A model generated the notes under the pieces. It worked only from the letters and a program-made list of their open reading frames with translations, was not told the DNA's origin and ran no database searches. Of a stretch of DNA of 64,000 nucleotides, positions 8,868 through 15,913 are shown piece by piece. Numbering within the stretch: position 1 is the first letter of the stretch; each line of letters begins with the position of its first letter. A program made the translations under genes and the position numbers. The stretch is from Roseateles hydrophilus (GTDB lineage: Bacteria > Pseudomonadota > Gammaproteobacteria > Burkholderiales > Burkholderiaceae_C): contig NZ_JAPPUY010000004.1 in assembly GCF_026712245.1 (NCBI RefSeq), positions 186,001 to 250,000 on the forward strand, written 5' to 3'.

Positions 8868-10058
8868 ATGCTGATCCAGTTCTTCTACACGCTGCGCGCC
8901 GCCAAGCTCAAGGTCACCGTTCCGGAGTACCTGACGCTTCTGGAGGCGCTGCGCGCTGGCGTGATCGCGTCGCCCGAGGACGGCGGCGTCGCACGCATCG
9001 ACGACTTCTACCACCTGGCCCGCGCCAGCCTCGTCAAGGACGAGACCCAGTACGACAAGTTCGACCGCGCCTTCGCCGCCTACTTCAAGGGCGTGGAGAT
9101 GCTGACCGACTTCACGGCCGAGGTGCCGCTGGAGTGGCTGAAGAAGAACCTCGAACTCAACCTGACGCCCGAGCAGAAGGCCGCCATCGAGAAGATGGGC
9201 TGGGATGAGCTGATGGAGACGCTGAAGAAGCGCTTCGAGGAGCAGAAGGAGCGCCATGAGGGCGGCAACCGCTGGATAGGCACCGGCGGCACCAGCCCCT
9301 TCGGCAACGGCGGCTACAACCCGCAGGGCGTGCGCATCGGCGGCGCAGGCGGCAACAAGAGCGCCGTCAAGGTCTGGGAGCAGCGCGCCTACCGCGACTA
9401 CGACGATTCGCTGGAGCTGGGCACCCGCAACATCAAGGTCGCGCTGCGCCGGCTGCGCCGCTTCGCCCGCGAGGGGTCGGACCTGGAGCTGGACCTGGAC
9501 GGCACCATCCACGGCACGGCCGCCAACGCCGGCATGCTGGACATCAAGATGCAGCCCGAGCGCCACAACAAGGTCAAGGTGCTGCTGCTGATGGACGTGG
9601 GCGGCACGATGGACGAGCACGTGCACCGCGTGGAAGAACTCTTCAGCGCCGCCAAGAGCGAGTTCAAGCACCTGGAGTTCTATTACTTCCACAACTGCGT
9701 CTACGACTTCGTCTGGAAGAACAACCGGCGCCGCTTCGCCGAGAAGCTCGACACCTTCGAGCTGATCCGCAAGTACAACCGCGACTACAAGCTCATCTTC
9801 GTCGGCGACGCGACGATGAGCCCCTACGAGATCCTGCAGCCCGGCGGCAGCGTCGAATACAACAACGACGAGACCGGTGCCGAATGGCTGCAGCGGCTCA
9901 CGCACGCCTTCCCCAAGTACGCCTGGATCAACCCCGAGCCGCAGGGCGTCTGGCAGTACCGCCAGAGCATCGCGCTGATCCAGCAGCTGATGCAGCAGCG
10001 CATGTTCCCGCTCAGCCTCTCCGGCCTTGAAGGCGCGATGCGATTGCTCAGCAAATGA
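8868..10058 (+). CDS. VWA-domain, CoxE-like protein, probable partner of the MoxR ATPase
   Basis: This 396-residue protein begins MLIQFFYTLRAAKLKVTVPEY, typical of the CoxE/VWA proteins paired with MoxR. The von Willebrand A domain starts near residue 235 (KVKVLLLMDVGGTMDEHV, Asp243). The metal-site motif is D-x-G-G-T rather than the canonical D-x-S-x-S; this glycine-rich version appears to be usual in this subfamily. The segment ending FHNCVYDFVW and the later VGDATMSPYEI fit the rest of a VWA fold. MoxR/VWA pairs work as AAA chaperone and adaptor. The gene overlaps tamA by ATGA, so it is coupled to the outer-membrane assembly genes downstream. Confidence 0.9.
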   Translation: MLIQFFYTLRAAKLKVTVPEYLTLLEALRAGVIASPEDGGVARIDDFYHLARASLVKDETQYDKFDRAFAAYFKGVEMLTDFTAEVPLEWLKKNLELNLTPEQKAAIEKMGWDELMETLKKRFEEQKERHEGGNRWIGTGGTSPFGNGGYNPQGVRIGGAGGNKSAVKVWEQRAYRDYDDSLELGTRNIKVALRRLRRFAREGSDLELDLDGTIHGTAANAGMLDIKMQPERHNKVKVLLLMDVGGTMDEHVHRVEELFSAAKSEFKHLEFYYFHNCVYDFVWKNNRRRFAEKLDTFELIRKYNRDYKLIFVGDATMSPYEILQPGGSVEYNNDETGAEWLQRLTHAFPKYAWINPEPQGVWQYRQSIALIQQLMQQRMFPLSLSGLEGAMRLLSK

Positions 10059-11881
10059 CGCGACTGCTCGTCGGCCTGCTGCTCGTGGCGGTACTGAGCG
10101 GCTGTGCGACGGCCCCGGCGCCCAACGCGTCGCCCCCCGCCCCGCCCGCTGCCCCGTCCCCGCCCGCTGCCGAGGCACCAGCCGTCTACAGCCTGGACAT
10201 CGAGGTCGACGGCGACTACCGCGACGACCGCCTGCGCAAGCTGCTGCAGCAGCACCTGGACCTGGCCCGCTACCGCGCCAGCGAGGCCGCACTCAGCCGT
10301 GGCGAGCTGGCTCGGCTGGCCGCGGCCGCGCCCGCCCAGGCCCAGACCCTGCTGGAGACCGAGGGCCACTTCAACGCCAGCGCCACGGTCAGCCGCGCCG
10401 CGGACGACGCCTCGCGACTGCGGCTGCTCGTCAAGCCCGGGCCGGTGACGCGGGTGGCCCGGGTCGAATTACTGTTCACTGAGGCGCTGGGCCACGATGA
10501 CGCGCAGGCCCTGCGCGACGCGCTGCGCAGCGCCTGGCCGCTGGGCGAGGGCGTGCCGTTCACGCAATCGCCCTGGGCGTCGGCCAAGAGCGAGCTGCTG
10601 CTGCGCGCCCGCCAGGGCGGCTACCCGCTGGCGCGCTGGGCCGAGACCGCCGCGCAGGTAGACACTGACAGCCACACCGCCGAGCTGCGCCTGGTGATGG
10701 CCAGCGGCCACCGCGCCCGGCTGGGCGAGCTGCGCATCGAAGGCCTGCAGCGCCAGGCCCGCCAGACCGTCGAGCGCCTGACCGGCTTTGAGCGGGGCGC
10801 TCCCTACACCGAGCAGGCGCTGGCCGACTTCCAGGAGCGCCTGGTCAAGACCCAGCTGTTCGACGCCGTGCGCGTGCAGCTGCAGTCCGAGGTGGTGGAC
10901 GCCGACGGCAGCAGCCCCGTGCGCGTCACGCTGACCGAGTCCGCGCTGCAGCAGGCCACCGTCGCCGTCGGCTACCACGCCAACGACGGCCAGAGCCTCA
11001 GCATCGAGCACCTGCACCGCCGCCCCTTCGGCCAGTCGGTGCGCGCGCGCTCCAAGCTGCAGCTCAGCCGTGACGTGCATGGCGTGGAGCTGGAGCTCAG
11101 CTCGCACCCGCAACCCGACCTGAAGCGCAACCTGATGTCGCTGCAGTTCGAGCAGGACCGCAGCAGCGACACCATCGCGCAGAACCTCGGCGTGCGGCTG
11201 GGCCGGCTGTACGAGGCGCCGCAGGACGAACGGCTGACCTATGTCGAGCTGCTGCGCGCCCGCGAGACCACCGGCAGCCAGGTCAACACCAACCTCGCGC
11301 TGTCGCTGAACCAGCAGTGGGTGCGCCGCCGCCTGGACAGCACGCTGCTGCCCACCGACGGCCACCAGGGCCTGCTGCTGCTCGGTGCCGGCCATGTGCG
11401 CGGCGGCGGCAGCGACGACAGCGGTCCCTTCGGCCGGCTGCAACTCAAGCTGGGCTACTACCGCCCGCTGGGCGGCTGGTTCGGCACGGCGCGCGCCGAG
11501 CTGGCCCAGGTCATTGCCCGCGAGCAGGTCGGCGTGCCCGAGAAGCTGCGCTTCCTGGCAGGCGGCGACGAGTCCGTGCGCGGCTACGCCTACCGCAGCC
11601 TGGGCCCGGTCGAGAACGGCCTGACCGTCGGCGGCCGCGTGCTGGCCACCGCCAGCCTGGAGCTGGCCCGCCCCTTCACCGCCAGCCTGCCCAGCGTGCT
11701 GGGCGCCGTGTTCGTGGACGCCGGCAATGCCGCTTCGCGCTGGGCCGACTACCGCCCCGTCGTCGGCATCGGCGCCGGCCTGCGCTGGCGCAGCCCGGTC
11801 GGGCCGCTGCGCATCGACGCCGCGCGCGCGCAGGAAACCGGCAAGTGGCGCCTGCACTTCAGCGTGGGGATCACCCTATGA
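10055..11881 (+). CDS. tamA: TamA-type outer-membrane translocation/assembly protein
   Basis: This 608-residue member of the BamA/TamA (Omp85) family has periplasmic POTRA-like repeats (about residues 45-285) and a C-terminal 16-strand barrel domain with the family motif FLAGGDESVRGYAY near residue 505. The C-terminal strand ends HFSVGITL, comparable to TamA endings. TamA works with TamB in moving proteins or lipids to the outer membrane, and tamB follows directly. Unusually, the signal is a lipobox (VAVLSGC, Cys17) followed by an Ala/Pro-rich tether, which predicts a lipidated N-terminus rather than a simply cleaved one. The start ATG overlaps the VWA stop. The stop codon lies within the first copy of a 47-bp tandem repeat. 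Confidence 0.93.
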   Translation: MTRLLVGLLLVAVLSGCATAPAPNASPPAPPAAPSPPAAEAPAVYSLDIEVDGDYRDDRLRKLLQQHLDLARYRASEAALSRGELARLAAAAPAQAQTLLETEGHFNASATVSRAADDASRLRLLVKPGPVTRVARVELLFTEALGHDDAQALRDALRSAWPLGEGVPFTQSPWASAKSELLLRARQGGYPLARWAETAAQVDTDSHTAELRLVMASGHRARLGELRIEGLQRQARQTVERLTGFERGAPYTEQALADFQERLVKTQLFDAVRVQLQSEVVDADGSSPVRVTLTESALQQATVAVGYHANDGQSLSIEHLHRRPFGQSVRARSKLQLSRDVHGVELELSSHPQPDLKRNLMSLQFEQDRSSDTIAQNLGVRLGRLYEAPQDERLTYVELLRARETTGSQVNTNLALSLNQQWVRRRLDSTLLPTDGHQGLLLLGAGHVRGGGSDDSGPFGRLQLKLGYYRPLGGWFGTARAELAQVIAREQVGVPEKLRFLAGGDESVRGYAYRSLGPVENGLTVGGRVLATASLELARPFTASLPSVLGAVFVDAGNAASRWADYRPVVGIGAGLRWRSPVGPLRIDAARAQETGKWRLHFSVGITL

Positions 11882-11928
11882 AGCTAGACGCTGCGACGTG
11901 GTCGAACAGCGTGGGGATCACCCTATGA
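11878..11928 (+). CDS. Micro-ORF 1 (16 codons), coupled to tamA by ATGA
   Basis: ATG at 11878 overlaps the tamA TGA (11879-11881). It encodes MKLDAATWSNSVGITL and stops at 11926-11928, where it overlaps the ATG of the second micro-ORF. The last six residues are the same as the TamA C-terminus because the repeat unit includes the end of tamA. A GGGGA sequence precedes the start. Whether the peptide has a function or the ORF only relays ribosomes to tamB cannot be told from sequence. Confidence 0.5.
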   Translation: MKLDAATWSNSVGITL

Positions 11929-11975
11929 AGCTAGACGCTGCGACGTGGTCGAACAGCGTGGAGATCACGCGGTGA
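11925..11975 (+). CDS. Micro-ORF 2 (16 codons), coupled to micro-ORF 1 and to tamB
   Basis: ATG at 11925 overlaps the stop of micro-ORF 1. It encodes MKLDAATWSNSVEITR and ends with TGA at 11973-11975, overlapping the tamB GTG (11972-11974). It differs from micro-ORF 1 only at Gly12 to Glu and Leu16 to Arg, because its 3' part lies in the diverged third repeat copy. The arrangement is a chain of three stop/start overlaps between tamA and tamB. Confidence 0.5.
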   Translation: MKLDAATWSNSVEITR

Positions 11976-14900
11976 ACCGGCCCCTGCGCATCGCGCTGAT
12001 CGCGCTCGCCGTCACGCTGTCCACGGTGACGGCCGCGCTCGGCTGGCTGCTGCTGCGCCCGGCCGGCAGCGCCTGGCTGCTCGCCCGCCTGCCAGGCGTG
12101 CAGGTGGAGGCGCCCGAGGGCACGCTGCTGGGTGACTTCCGCGCCCGACGCCTGCTGCTGAGCTGGGCCGGCGGCACGGCCGACCTGCGTGGCCTGCGCT
12201 GGGCCGGCCTGGGCCTGCGCGACGGCCGCCTGGCCGCGCGCGAACTGGTGGTGGACGAGCTCACGCTGCGCACCCAACCCAGCAGCGGCCCGCTGACGGC
12301 GCCGGCCGAGCTGTCACTGCCGCTGGGCCTGCGCCTGCCACGCCTGGCCATCGCCCGCCTCAGCTGGGCGGCCGACCAGCCGCCCCTGCTCGGCATCAAC
12401 GCCGACCTGGACCTGCCCCGCCACGGCACCCACGACCTGCGGCTGAACAGCGCCAGCTGGCAGCAGGTGCAGTTCACGGGCCGGCTGCAGCTGACCAGCG
12501 CCCAGCCGCTGCAAACGCAGCTGCAACTGTCCGCGCAACAGCGCGAGGGCAGCGCCCTGCCCTGGCAGGCCGTGGCGAGCGCCCGCGGGCCGCTGGCGCA
12601 GCTGGCTCTGCAGGCCGAGGTGACGGCTGGCGGCCAGACGCTGCAGGCCAGCGGCGAGCTGCGCCCGTTCGCGCCCTGGCCCGTCAGCGCGCTGCAACTG
12701 CAGGCCCGCCAGTTCGACCTCGCCGCGCTGGCCACGCTCGCCCCCGGCCTGCCGCGCACCGCCCTCACCGGCCAGGCCCGCCTGCACGCCCCGGCCCGCG
12801 ATGCCGAAGCCACGTTGCAAGCCGACCTCAGCAACACCGCCCCCGGCCGCTGGGACCAGGGCGCCCTGCCCGTGCGCCGCCTGCAGCTGGCGCTGGCCGG
12901 CCGGCCGGACCAACCCACCAGCCTGCGCCTGACCACGCTGGACGCCGTGCTGGAAGGCGGCGCCCGCGTGCAGGGCCACGGCCGCCGCGAGGCCGACGGC
13001 CGCTGGCAGCTGGACGCCCGCGTCCAGGCGCTGCGCCCCGAGCTGCTGGACGCCCGCGCCGCGCCGGCCCGGCTGGACGGGCCGCTCGCACTGGCCGGCG
13101 GCGGCACGGCGCCGCTGCAGGCACGGCTGGACCTCACCGGCACGCTGGCCGAGCGCCCGCTGCGCCTGCTGGCCCGCGTGCAGGGGCGGCTGCGCGACGG
13201 CGGCAGCCGCTGGGACGTCGACGAGCTGCGCCTGGCCAGCGGCGCCAGCCTGCTGAGCGCCAGCGGCAGCCTGCAGGCCCCGCAGACCGGCCTGCCCACG
13301 GCCCGCCTGCAGGCCCAGCTGCGCCAGTTCGACCCACGCCTGCTGTGGCGCGGCGCGCCCGACTCGGCCTGGGCCCGCCTGCCCGGCAGCACCCAGCTCA
13401 ATGCCGACCTCGCGCTGGACCTCAGCGGCCACCGCGCCAACAACGCCACCGGCCGCGCCGAGGCCACGCTGCTGCCCAGCCAGCTCGCCGGCCTGGCGCT
13501 GGACGGCCGGCTGCAGCTCACCCGCGCTCGCGCGGCCGACGCCGCCACCTTCGAGCTGAACTCCCGGCTGGGCAGCAACCGCATCCAGGCCGCCGGCCAG
13601 GCGCGGCTGGACGCCGTCACCGCGCGGCTGCAGCTCAACGCGCCCAAGCTGGCCGAGCTGAACCCGCTGCTGGCGCTGGCTGGCCAGGGGCCCGCTGCCG
13701 GCCAGGCCGATGGCGAGGGCGAGCTGCAACTGCAGCGCGGGCCGGCATCGTCCCTGCCCGCCAAGGCCGCCACCACGTGGCAGGTCGGCGGCAGCGGCCA
13801 GGCGACGCTCAAGCGCGTCAGCGCCCAGGGGCTGGTGCTGGACAACGCCCAGGCCCGCTGGGCGCTGCCCGCACCGGGCACGGCGGGCGACGCCCCGCTG
13901 TCGCTGCAGCTGGAGGCCGGCGGGCTGCGCCACCCGCAAGCGCGGCTGCGCACGCTGAAGCTCACGCTGCAGGGCCGGCGCAGCGCGCACGAGCTCCAAC
14001 TGCAGATCGCCGGCCAGTTGCCGCGCGCCGAGCAAGACATCCCGCTGGACGCCACGCTGCAGGCCCAGGGCGGCTGGGACGGCCAGGCCTGGGCCGGCCG
14101 CCTGGCGCGGCTGGACATCGCACCCCTGCGCCCCGGCCTGCCGGCCACGCTGGCGGCGGCCGGCATCAGCCTGCGCGCCGCGCTGACCGACAGCGGCTGG
14201 GACCTCAGCGCCGAGCCCGGCCGCGCCGAGGTGGGCGGTGCCTTCGTGCGCTGGCAGCAATTGAGCTGGCGAGGCGGCGAGCGCCCCGAGGCCCGCGTCG
14301 AGCTGCAGCTGGAAGACCTGGCCGCCGCGCCGCTGCTGGCGCGCTGGCAGCCCGACTTCGGCTGGGGCGGCGACCTGCGCATCACCGGCCACGCCTCGCT
14401 GCTGCTGACCGACACGCTCAGCGCCGACGTGCTGCTGCAGCGCCAGGGCGGCGACCTGCGCGTGACCGACGAGTTCGGCACCCGGGCGCTGGGCCTGAGC
14501 GACCTGCGCCTGGCGCTGAACGTGCGCGACGGCGTGTGGATGCTGGCCCAGGGCCTGGCCGGCCAGGAGCTGGGCGGCCTGGGCGGCGCACTGACGCTGC
14601 GCCCCACCGGCCGCTGGCCCGACGCCGACACGCCCGTGCAGGGCGTGCTGCAGGCCAATGTGTCGGACATGGCCACCTGGGGCCGCTGGGTGCCGCCGGG
14701 CTGGCGCGTGGCCGGCCGCGCGTCCGCGACGGTGCAGCTCGGCGGCCGGCTCGGCGCGCCCGAGCTGCACGGCCGGGCCGAGGGCGACGGCATCGCGCTG
14801 CGCCACCTGCTGTATGGCGTGGACGTCACCGAGGGCCGCTTCACGCTGGACCTGCGCGGCCGGCACGCCGAGCTCACGCAGCTGCAGGCCCGCGCTGGCG

Positions 14901-15913
14901 ACGGCTGGCTGCGCGCCACCGGCCGCGCCGAGCTGGGCGCCCAGCCCACGGCGCGCATCGAACTGGTGGCCGACAAGCTGCGCGTGCTGTCGCGCGTGGA
15001 CCGCCGCGTCGTGGCCAGCGGCAACGCCACGCTGGCGCTGGATGAGCAAACGCTGCAACTGAACGGCAGCCTGCGCGCCGACGAAGGCCTGTTCGACTTC
15101 AGCCGTGCCGACGCGCCCACGCTGGCCGATGACGTCGTCGTGCGCCGCGGCCCGCGCGACGCGGTGCCCCCCGAGGCCGACGCGCCGTCACCCCGGCTGC
15201 GCCGCGGCTCGCGCATCGCGCTGGCGCTGGACTTTGGCCGCGACTTCAAGGTCAGCGGCCGCGGCCTGACGACCACGCTGCGCGGCCAGCTGCAACTCAC
15301 GCAGAAGGACGACAGCCCGCTGCGCATGACCGGCAAGCTGGCGGCCGACGGCGGCCAGTACGCGGCCTACGGCCAGAAGCTGGAGATCGAGCGCGGCGAC
15401 ATCAGCTTCACCGGCGCGCCCGACAACCCGGCGCTGGACCTGCTGGCCGTGCGCCCCAACCTTGATGTGCGCGTGGGCGTGCAAGTGGGCGGCACGGCGC
15501 AGGCCCCGCGCATCGGCCTGTATTCCGAGCCCGAGATGAGCGACACCGACAAGCTGTCCTGGCTGCTGCTGGGCCGCGCGCCCGATGGCCTGGGCCGCAC
15601 CGACACCGCGCTGCTGCAACGCGCCGCAATGGCCCTGCTCAGCGGCGAGGGCGAAGGCGCCACCGGCCGCGCACTGCGCCAGCTGGGGCTGGACGAGCTG
15701 TCGCTGGCGCAGAGCGACGACGACACCCGCGCCACCATCGTGCGCCTGGGCAAGCAGATCTCGCGGCGCTGGTACGTGGGCTACGAGCGCAGCCTCAACG
15801 CGACGACGGGTTCCTGGCAGCTCATCTACCGCATCGCCCAGCGCTTCACGCTGCGCGCACAGAGCGGCGACGACACGGCGCTGGACCTGATCTGGCAGTG
15901 GCGCTGGAACTGA
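11972..15913 (+). CDS. tamB: TamB-type translocation and assembly module protein (AsmA-like, DUF490)
   Basis: This 1313-residue protein is anchored by one N-terminal membrane helix (IALIALAVTLSTVTAALGWL). A very long beta-taco/repeat region follows, and then the conserved C-terminal DUF490 domain. The end shows typical TamB features: GRDFKVSGRGLTTTLRG, MTGKLAADGGQYAAYGQKL, LLAVRPNLDVRVGVQVGG, LSWLLLGRAPDG and YVGYERSLNATTGSWQLIYR. TamB spans the periplasm and works with TamA in outer-membrane protein or phospholipid delivery. The start is GTG 11972, with SD GGAGA seven bases upstream and a GTGA overlap with micro-ORF 2. The repeat-rich, Leu/Ala/Gln-heavy composition is normal for the family. 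Confidence 0.93.
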   Translation: MNRPLRIALIALAVTLSTVTAALGWLLLRPAGSAWLLARLPGVQVEAPEGTLLGDFRARRLLLSWAGGTADLRGLRWAGLGLRDGRLAARELVVDELTLRTQPSSGPLTAPAELSLPLGLRLPRLAIARLSWAADQPPLLGINADLDLPRHGTHDLRLNSASWQQVQFTGRLQLTSAQPLQTQLQLSAQQREGSALPWQAVASARGPLAQLALQAEVTAGGQTLQASGELRPFAPWPVSALQLQARQFDLAALATLAPGLPRTALTGQARLHAPARDAEATLQADLSNTAPGRWDQGALPVRRLQLALAGRPDQPTSLRLTTLDAVLEGGARVQGHGRREADGRWQLDARVQALRPELLDARAAPARLDGPLALAGGGTAPLQARLDLTGTLAERPLRLLARVQGRLRDGGSRWDVDELRLASGASLLSASGSLQAPQTGLPTARLQAQLRQFDPRLLWRGAPDSAWARLPGSTQLNADLALDLSGHRANNATGRAEATLLPSQLAGLALDGRLQLTRARAADAATFELNSRLGSNRIQAAGQARLDAVTARLQLNAPKLAELNPLLALAGQGPAAGQADGEGELQLQRGPASSLPAKAATTWQVGGSGQATLKRVSAQGLVLDNAQARWALPAPGTAGDAPLSLQLEAGGLRHPQARLRTLKLTLQGRRSAHELQLQIAGQLPRAEQDIPLDATLQAQGGWDGQAWAGRLARLDIAPLRPGLPATLAAAGISLRAALTDSGWDLSAEPGRAEVGGAFVRWQQLSWRGGERPEARVELQLEDLAAAPLLARWQPDFGWGGDLRITGHASLLLTDTLSADVLLQRQGGDLRVTDEFGTRALGLSDLRLALNVRDGVWMLAQGLAGQELGGLGGALTLRPTGRWPDADTPVQGVLQANVSDMATWGRWVPPGWRVAGRASATVQLGGRLGAPELHGRAEGDGIALRHLLYGVDVTEGRFTLDLRGRHAELTQLQARAGDGWLRATGRAELGAQPTARIELVADKLRVLSRVDRRVVASGNATLALDEQTLQLNGSLRADEGLFDFSRADAPTLADDVVVRRGPRDAVPPEADAPSPRLRRGSRIALALDFGRDFKVSGRGLTTTLRGQLQLTQKDDSPLRMTGKLAADGGQYAAYGQKLEIERGDISFTGAPDNPALDLLAVRPNLDVRVGVQVGGTAQAPRIGLYSEPEMSDTDKLSWLLLGRAPDGLGRTDTALLQRAAMALLSGEGEGATGRALRQLGLDELSLAQSDDDTRATIVRLGKQISRRWYVGYERSLNATTGSWQLIYRIAQRFTLRAQSGDDTALDLIWQWRWN

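Follow-up and report, generated by a model that had tools for sequence, protein, structure and literature searches.

How does translation reach tamB when a tandem repeat separates it from tamA, although the two genes directly overlap in most related genomes? The question is raised by a window of 64,000 nucleotides (the whole stretch of DNA analyzed here), which lies within a 637,776-base contig of the 4.77-Mb genome of Roseateles hydrophilus. All features discussed for this window are on the forward strand. The tamA gene (10055 to 11881; Pfam Omp85, 9.8e-34) encodes a member of the Omp85 family, and its last codons contain a GGGG motif and end in an ATGA overlap (11878-11881). The tamB gene (11972 to 15913; Pfam TamB, 1.9e-60) begins with GTG, within GTGA at 11972-11975. 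Two 47-bp copies of the same sequence (11860 to 11906 and 11907 to 11953), each consisting of the tamA tail, ATGA, and a core, were read directly and detected by TRF. They are followed by a partial copy of about 22 bp (11954 to 11975), which contains only the tail, with GGGG changed to GGAG, and ends in GTGA. The initial annotation described a repeat of three copies; its two exact 47-bp copies stand, while its diverged third is this partial copy and no whole unit.

The repeat contains two micro-ORFs of 16 codons each, both read directly and recovered in the chain test described below. The first (MKLDAATWSNSVGITL; 11878 to 11928) overlaps the tamA stop by 4 nt, and the second (MKLDAATWSNSVEITR; 11925 to 11975) overlaps both the stop of the first and the start of tamB by 4 nt. 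All three joints are 4-nt overlaps (ATGA, ATGA, and GTGA), as the initial annotation had read them, and such stop/start overlaps (-4 or -1 nt) are a mark of gene pairs coupled by termination-reinitiation. It was also correct that a change in unit number never breaks tamA or tamB, which holds by geometry for units of 3n-1 bases. Upstream, the stop of a VWA/CoxE-like gene (8868 to 10058; an ORF with a Pfam match) shares 4 nt (10055-10058) with the tamA start, so that three genes are linked through 4-nt overlaps, and this gene may perhaps belong to the same coupled operon as tamA and tamB.

The TRF score of the tamA-tamB array is 211, and the runner-up among the 24 rows of the window scores 65. 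Ten rows score at least 100 on the whole contig; the tamA-tamB array alone has 98% matches, the other nine having 65-87%. A 161-base junction query has one matching place in the window's genome. About 11-12 kb to the left of the window lies a tandem array of 1.3 kb, made of about 20 units of 66 bp with a palindromic motif (CCACCC...GGGTGG; G000:C8:173963-175308, L163).

The initial annotation proposed a comparison across close species, and we examined 20 Roseateles/Pelomonas genomes, one per species, all of which contain tamA. The genes tamA and tamB overlap directly in 14 of them and the junction is expanded in six by one or two units of 44-50 bp, with an extra insert of 122 bp in one case; unit number is thus 0, 1, or 2, and the lengthening ranges from 0 to 169 bases. 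The expansions measure 47+47 bp in the window, 44+44 bp in L004, 44 bp in L012, 47 bp in L016, 47+122 bp in L015, and 98 bp in one ORF in L019 (units of 48 and 50 bp). Eleven of the 14 zero-unit species share a distance of 77 nt between the tamA stop and a fixed TamB motif; the TamB heads of the remaining three are built differently. In the expanded species it amounts to 121 (L012), 124 (L016), 162 (window, with a TamB head shorter by three codons), 165 (L004), 175 (L019), and 246 nt (L015). Tandem self-match scores of at least 18 are confined to five of the six expanded junctions; the unit of L012 has diverged, which lowers its score to 12. Among the zero-unit junctions the maximum is 16 (L017), and 430 control windows taken from within tamA and tamB reach no more than 17. 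L012 (L065) is a metagenome-assembled genome whose tamB leaves frame about 45 codons in, through either assembly or mutation. Since five more genomes of the genus set have homologous units between tamA and tamB, the array in the window is not an isolated oddity of assembly, and an assembly artefact is rated unlikely.

The stop/start-linked relay of micro-ORFs, claimed initially for the window, is present there and in every other expanded junction: a chain of ORFs joined via 4-nt overlaps connects the stop of tamA with the start of tamB without a break in six out of six. At one step in L015, the strict search chose an in-frame ATG (1-nt overlap) located beside the GTG of the 4-nt overlap. With units of 48 and 50 bp, the ORF of L019 stays in frame across the first unit and, 98 bases on, terminates at the ATGA that follows. 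In L015, the ORF continues through the 122-bp insert and stops exactly on the ATGA of tamB. The three forward frames of this insert contain zero, one, and one stops (that of the used frame being the final TGA) and the reverse frames none; with so few stops in any frame, only the frame of the ORF is telling, not its openness. This insert (L066:2851-2972, Pelomonas sp. Root1217) holds a palindromic dispersed repeat of about 75 bp, which has 81 matches in its own genome and 36 in a sister genome (both strands counted), and none in the window's genome.

The reading that we regard as probable, judging from these sequences, is that a local tandem duplication of the overlapping junction gave rise to the insert and that its micro-ORFs relay ribosomes to tamB, with selection acting on the chain and not on the peptides. 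Each unit would combine the tamA end (an SD-like motif and ATGA) with a core of about 25 bp, and as the motif and the ATGA are copied together, every copy would rebuild a complete stop/start site. A ribosome ending tamA would re-initiate on an ORF of 15-16 codons, whose sole job would be to hand the ribosome on, overlap by overlap, until it reaches tamB. Units would be gained or lost via slippage or recombination between the copied tails, and variants breaking the chain would be removed because tamB presumably depends on coupling to tamA. The peptides themselves would be under no selection. For coupling in general, the portion of PMC12548453 consulted retains RNA unfolding as an alternative to re-initiation.

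The same chain could also arise as a neutral by-product. In that case, stop/start sites would reappear automatically whenever an overlap is duplicated, translation of tamB would begin de novo at the SD of tamB itself, and the chain would be functionless and unselected. Simulated duplications of the junctions of 11 zero-unit species (33,231 constructs) already yield a relay in one third of the cases (33%), the remainder being in-frame extensions (24%) and broken chains (43%), and of 6,000 shuffled inserts (116-118 bp plus ATGA) 24.5% form a relay. In addition, the cores differ between species by 15-52%, which is similar to or above the differences at tamA third codon positions (24-33%). Opposed to this are the relays in all six expanded junctions, where the frame was kept by the L015 insert and the L019 length changes as well. 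The six do not represent six independent tests, because their core is homologous.

The wider family bears on this alternative in both directions. Out of 299 genomes drawn evenly from the larger group, 228 matched, and a part of those entered the junction survey. HMM placement succeeded for 166 of 166 loci, leaving 139 unique junctions after removal of 27 duplicates, and the tamB head was located in 131 (20 within the genus, 111 outside). These comprise 105 direct junctions, 11 relays (six in the genus and five outside, the latter with ORFs of 6-16 codons), and 15 gapped junctions without relay, all outside the genus. Ten of these gaps measure 9-20 nt and the other five 28, 69, 213, 225, and 251 nt. 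Gaps without relay at 15 of 111 junctions imply that coupling is not obligatory in the family, as the neutral explanation would have it. It is countered by the 13 gapped junctions in which a start codon overlaps the stop of tamA (by 4 or 1 nt): 11 of them, all but L110 and L202, are relays, with ancestry partly shared. The 13 junctions represent nine lineages at most, seven of them relays, for which a hand calculation gives roughly 0.01-0.09 against chances of 1/3-1/2. The lineage counts are suggestive of selection for an intact relay, short of proof, and we consider the neutral explanation unlikely, though the likeliest of the alternatives. No tandem self-match above 14 was found among 119 unique junctions outside the genus. 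Outside the genus, micro-ORFs of 16 and 13 codons link tamA and tamB via TGATG and ATGA in L107 and L120, respectively; that of L107 opens with four consecutive ATG codons.

The units consist of a copy of the tamA 3' tail and the core of about 25 bp, and core identity between units is 48-93%, compared to 25-29% for shuffled sequences. The reading frame of the core gives MSQRLRLRRT or MSRPLRLCRT in L004 and L012, whereas the units of the 47-bp class use a frame shifted by one base and give MKPDAAASPN or MKLDAATWSN; the ORF chain is kept despite this frame change. As homologous cores are thus read in different frames into unrelated peptides, it seems to be the coupling geometry rather than the peptide that is conserved. 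We give almost no credence to the idea that the micro-ORFs encode a functional peptide: MKxDAA-like starts are common to some units, but the homologous core stands in different frames, and the products differ between the 44-bp and 47-bp classes.

Where the core comes from was addressed with several searches. A 47-bp-class core pattern allowing up to three mismatches gave five matches in four of the 20 genomes, all at the tamA-tamB junction, together with two further isolated matches at three mismatches; a reversed control pattern also gave five matches, and the pattern missed the known units of genomes G003 and G013, which limits its sensitivity. Within these limits, we rejected the core as a dispersed element and place it at the tamA-tamB junction. 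A plasmid origin was discarded as well, with no match in the plasmid collection. Alignments of the core to the species' own tamB head did not rise above background for any of seven cores (lowest background share 0.17, L012), nor clearly so for the tamB heads of zero-unit species (lowest share 0.11, L004). At these background levels, the idea of the core as a plain copy of the tamB start was set aside. At the peptide level, identity to the own TamB head amounts to five of ten residues in L012 (0.1% of windows) and is marginal in L004 (three of ten, 6.7%); it is absent for the window, L015, and L016. These peptide matches weakly suggest that the core of L012 may derive from a tamB head.

The core might instead act as RNA: a hairpin preceding each SD (in the window, ACGCUG-CGAC-GUG-GUCG-AA-CAGCGU) would affect mRNA stability or ribosome access. 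The full stem is predicted for the unit of the window, for L016, and for both units of L019, and its inner part for L015; one pair is changed on both sides (A-U to G-C), and 85.7% of cells pair versus at most 50% with partners slid. However, no stem is predicted for the 44-bp units, the fold z-scores are weak (-0.8 to -1.7 for four units, -0.02 for L015, and +0.4 to +1.2 for the three 44-bp units), and the pair statistics fall within shuffles (75/500 and 71/500). Rfam gave no match at E 1 in 11500-12400. A conserved hairpin was set aside given its weak support in the fold, pairing, and Rfam tests, and we hold an RNA element to be very improbable.

The relay reading has a further consequence for the SD sites: the last copy, freed from encoding the TamA C-terminus, could let its SD drift or improve, as GGGG to GGAG in the window. 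The contribution of the SD differs by gene pair, according to the part of PMC6728339 available to us. Pairing of the final SD with the anti-SD ranges from -5.5 to -6.5 kcal/mol in the expanded species versus -1.7 to -5.6 kcal/mol for the 14 species without units (0.0008 in a one-sided rank test, kinship and spacing ignored), and the first SD sites of the expanded species compare with the zero-unit sites at 0.05 (same restrictions). The last SD before tamB is at least as strong as the first in six of six, with a tie in L016 and a trivial difference in L015. The difference is small, the species are related, and the pairing energy leaves spacing aside. The strength of the last SD fits the idea that copying frees the tamB RBS from the TamA C-terminal codons. 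Following this idea, the tamB RBS would lie inside the codons of the conserved C-terminal strand of TamA, a coding conflict, and duplication of the junction would be an evolutionary exit from it: tamB would gain a private, improvable RBS, a dispensable micro-ORF would keep the coupling, and unit number would become a slow dial on the TamA:TamB ratio. We put this forward tentatively, as a doubtful extension.

The expanded species are spread over the tamA tree (23 rows), with at least six changes of unit presence or absence and with eight of 20 inner branches open. Because the cores are homologous, a single early gain that was lost repeatedly, or exchange among species, is more probable than six separate gains. 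A single origin would need about ten losses (hand count); the direct repeats formed by the copied tails would make loss easy. The initial annotation raised a possible copy-number rheostat, in which a within-species change of units sets the TamA:TamB ratio via the number of re-initiation steps. The two exactly identical copies of the window would agree with this, as would the spread of unit numbers among species (0-2), which also separates two close relatives, L014 with none and L015 with one plus the insert. Yet the changes on the tree fit slow change equally well as switching, and a stronger last SD could offset the loss per step. We therefore judge such a rheostat improbable; a tolerated insert, with tamA-tamB translation staying coupled, appears as a simpler reading that fits the sequences better than a tuning device.

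The tamA-tamB junctions represent natural experiments on translational coupling, with one gene pair in 20 related genomes and a chain kept in each of the six lengthened junctions. They make it testable whether selection at gene overlaps protects coupling and how many serial re-initiation steps one ribosome manages. We found no report of a tamA-tamB micro-ORF relay in the open-licence literature, judged on titles and abstract starts. The closest known systems are mycobacterial interspersed repetitive units (MIRUs) and engineered bicistronic designs. Tandem MIRUs are found at gene overlaps, for instance senX3-regX3, with copy numbers that differ between strains. According to extracts of PMC12548453, a MIRU sits as a short repeat at the start of a gene and its ORF is coupled to that gene at -4 spacing, so that expression is likely little disturbed by the insertion. 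The units described here similarly have an ORF overlapping the downstream gene start by 4 nt. In contrast to MIRUs, which are dispersed over many loci, the tamA-tamB core was located at one locus only, within the limited sensitivity of the pattern; the unit includes a copy of the upstream gene's tail, nothing pointed to mobility, and the hosts are unrelated (mycobacteria versus Roseateles/Pelomonas). In bicistronic designs, the leader cistron contains an internal SD and an overlap. These engineered designs likewise use a short ORF to deliver ribosomes to a downstream start (PMC12548453, in part), whereas the tamA-tamB relay is natural, lies inside an operon, and is repeated in series. Coupling at native gene pairs drops steeply as the gap lengthens and is almost lost at about 20 nt (PMC10666635, in the sections seen). 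Termination-reinitiation at ATGA/TGATG overlaps, as portrayed in sections of PMC6728339 and PMC10666635, shares with the tamA-tamB junction the -4 overlap and an SD-like motif in the upstream tail, but the latter has one or two extra ORFs interposed.
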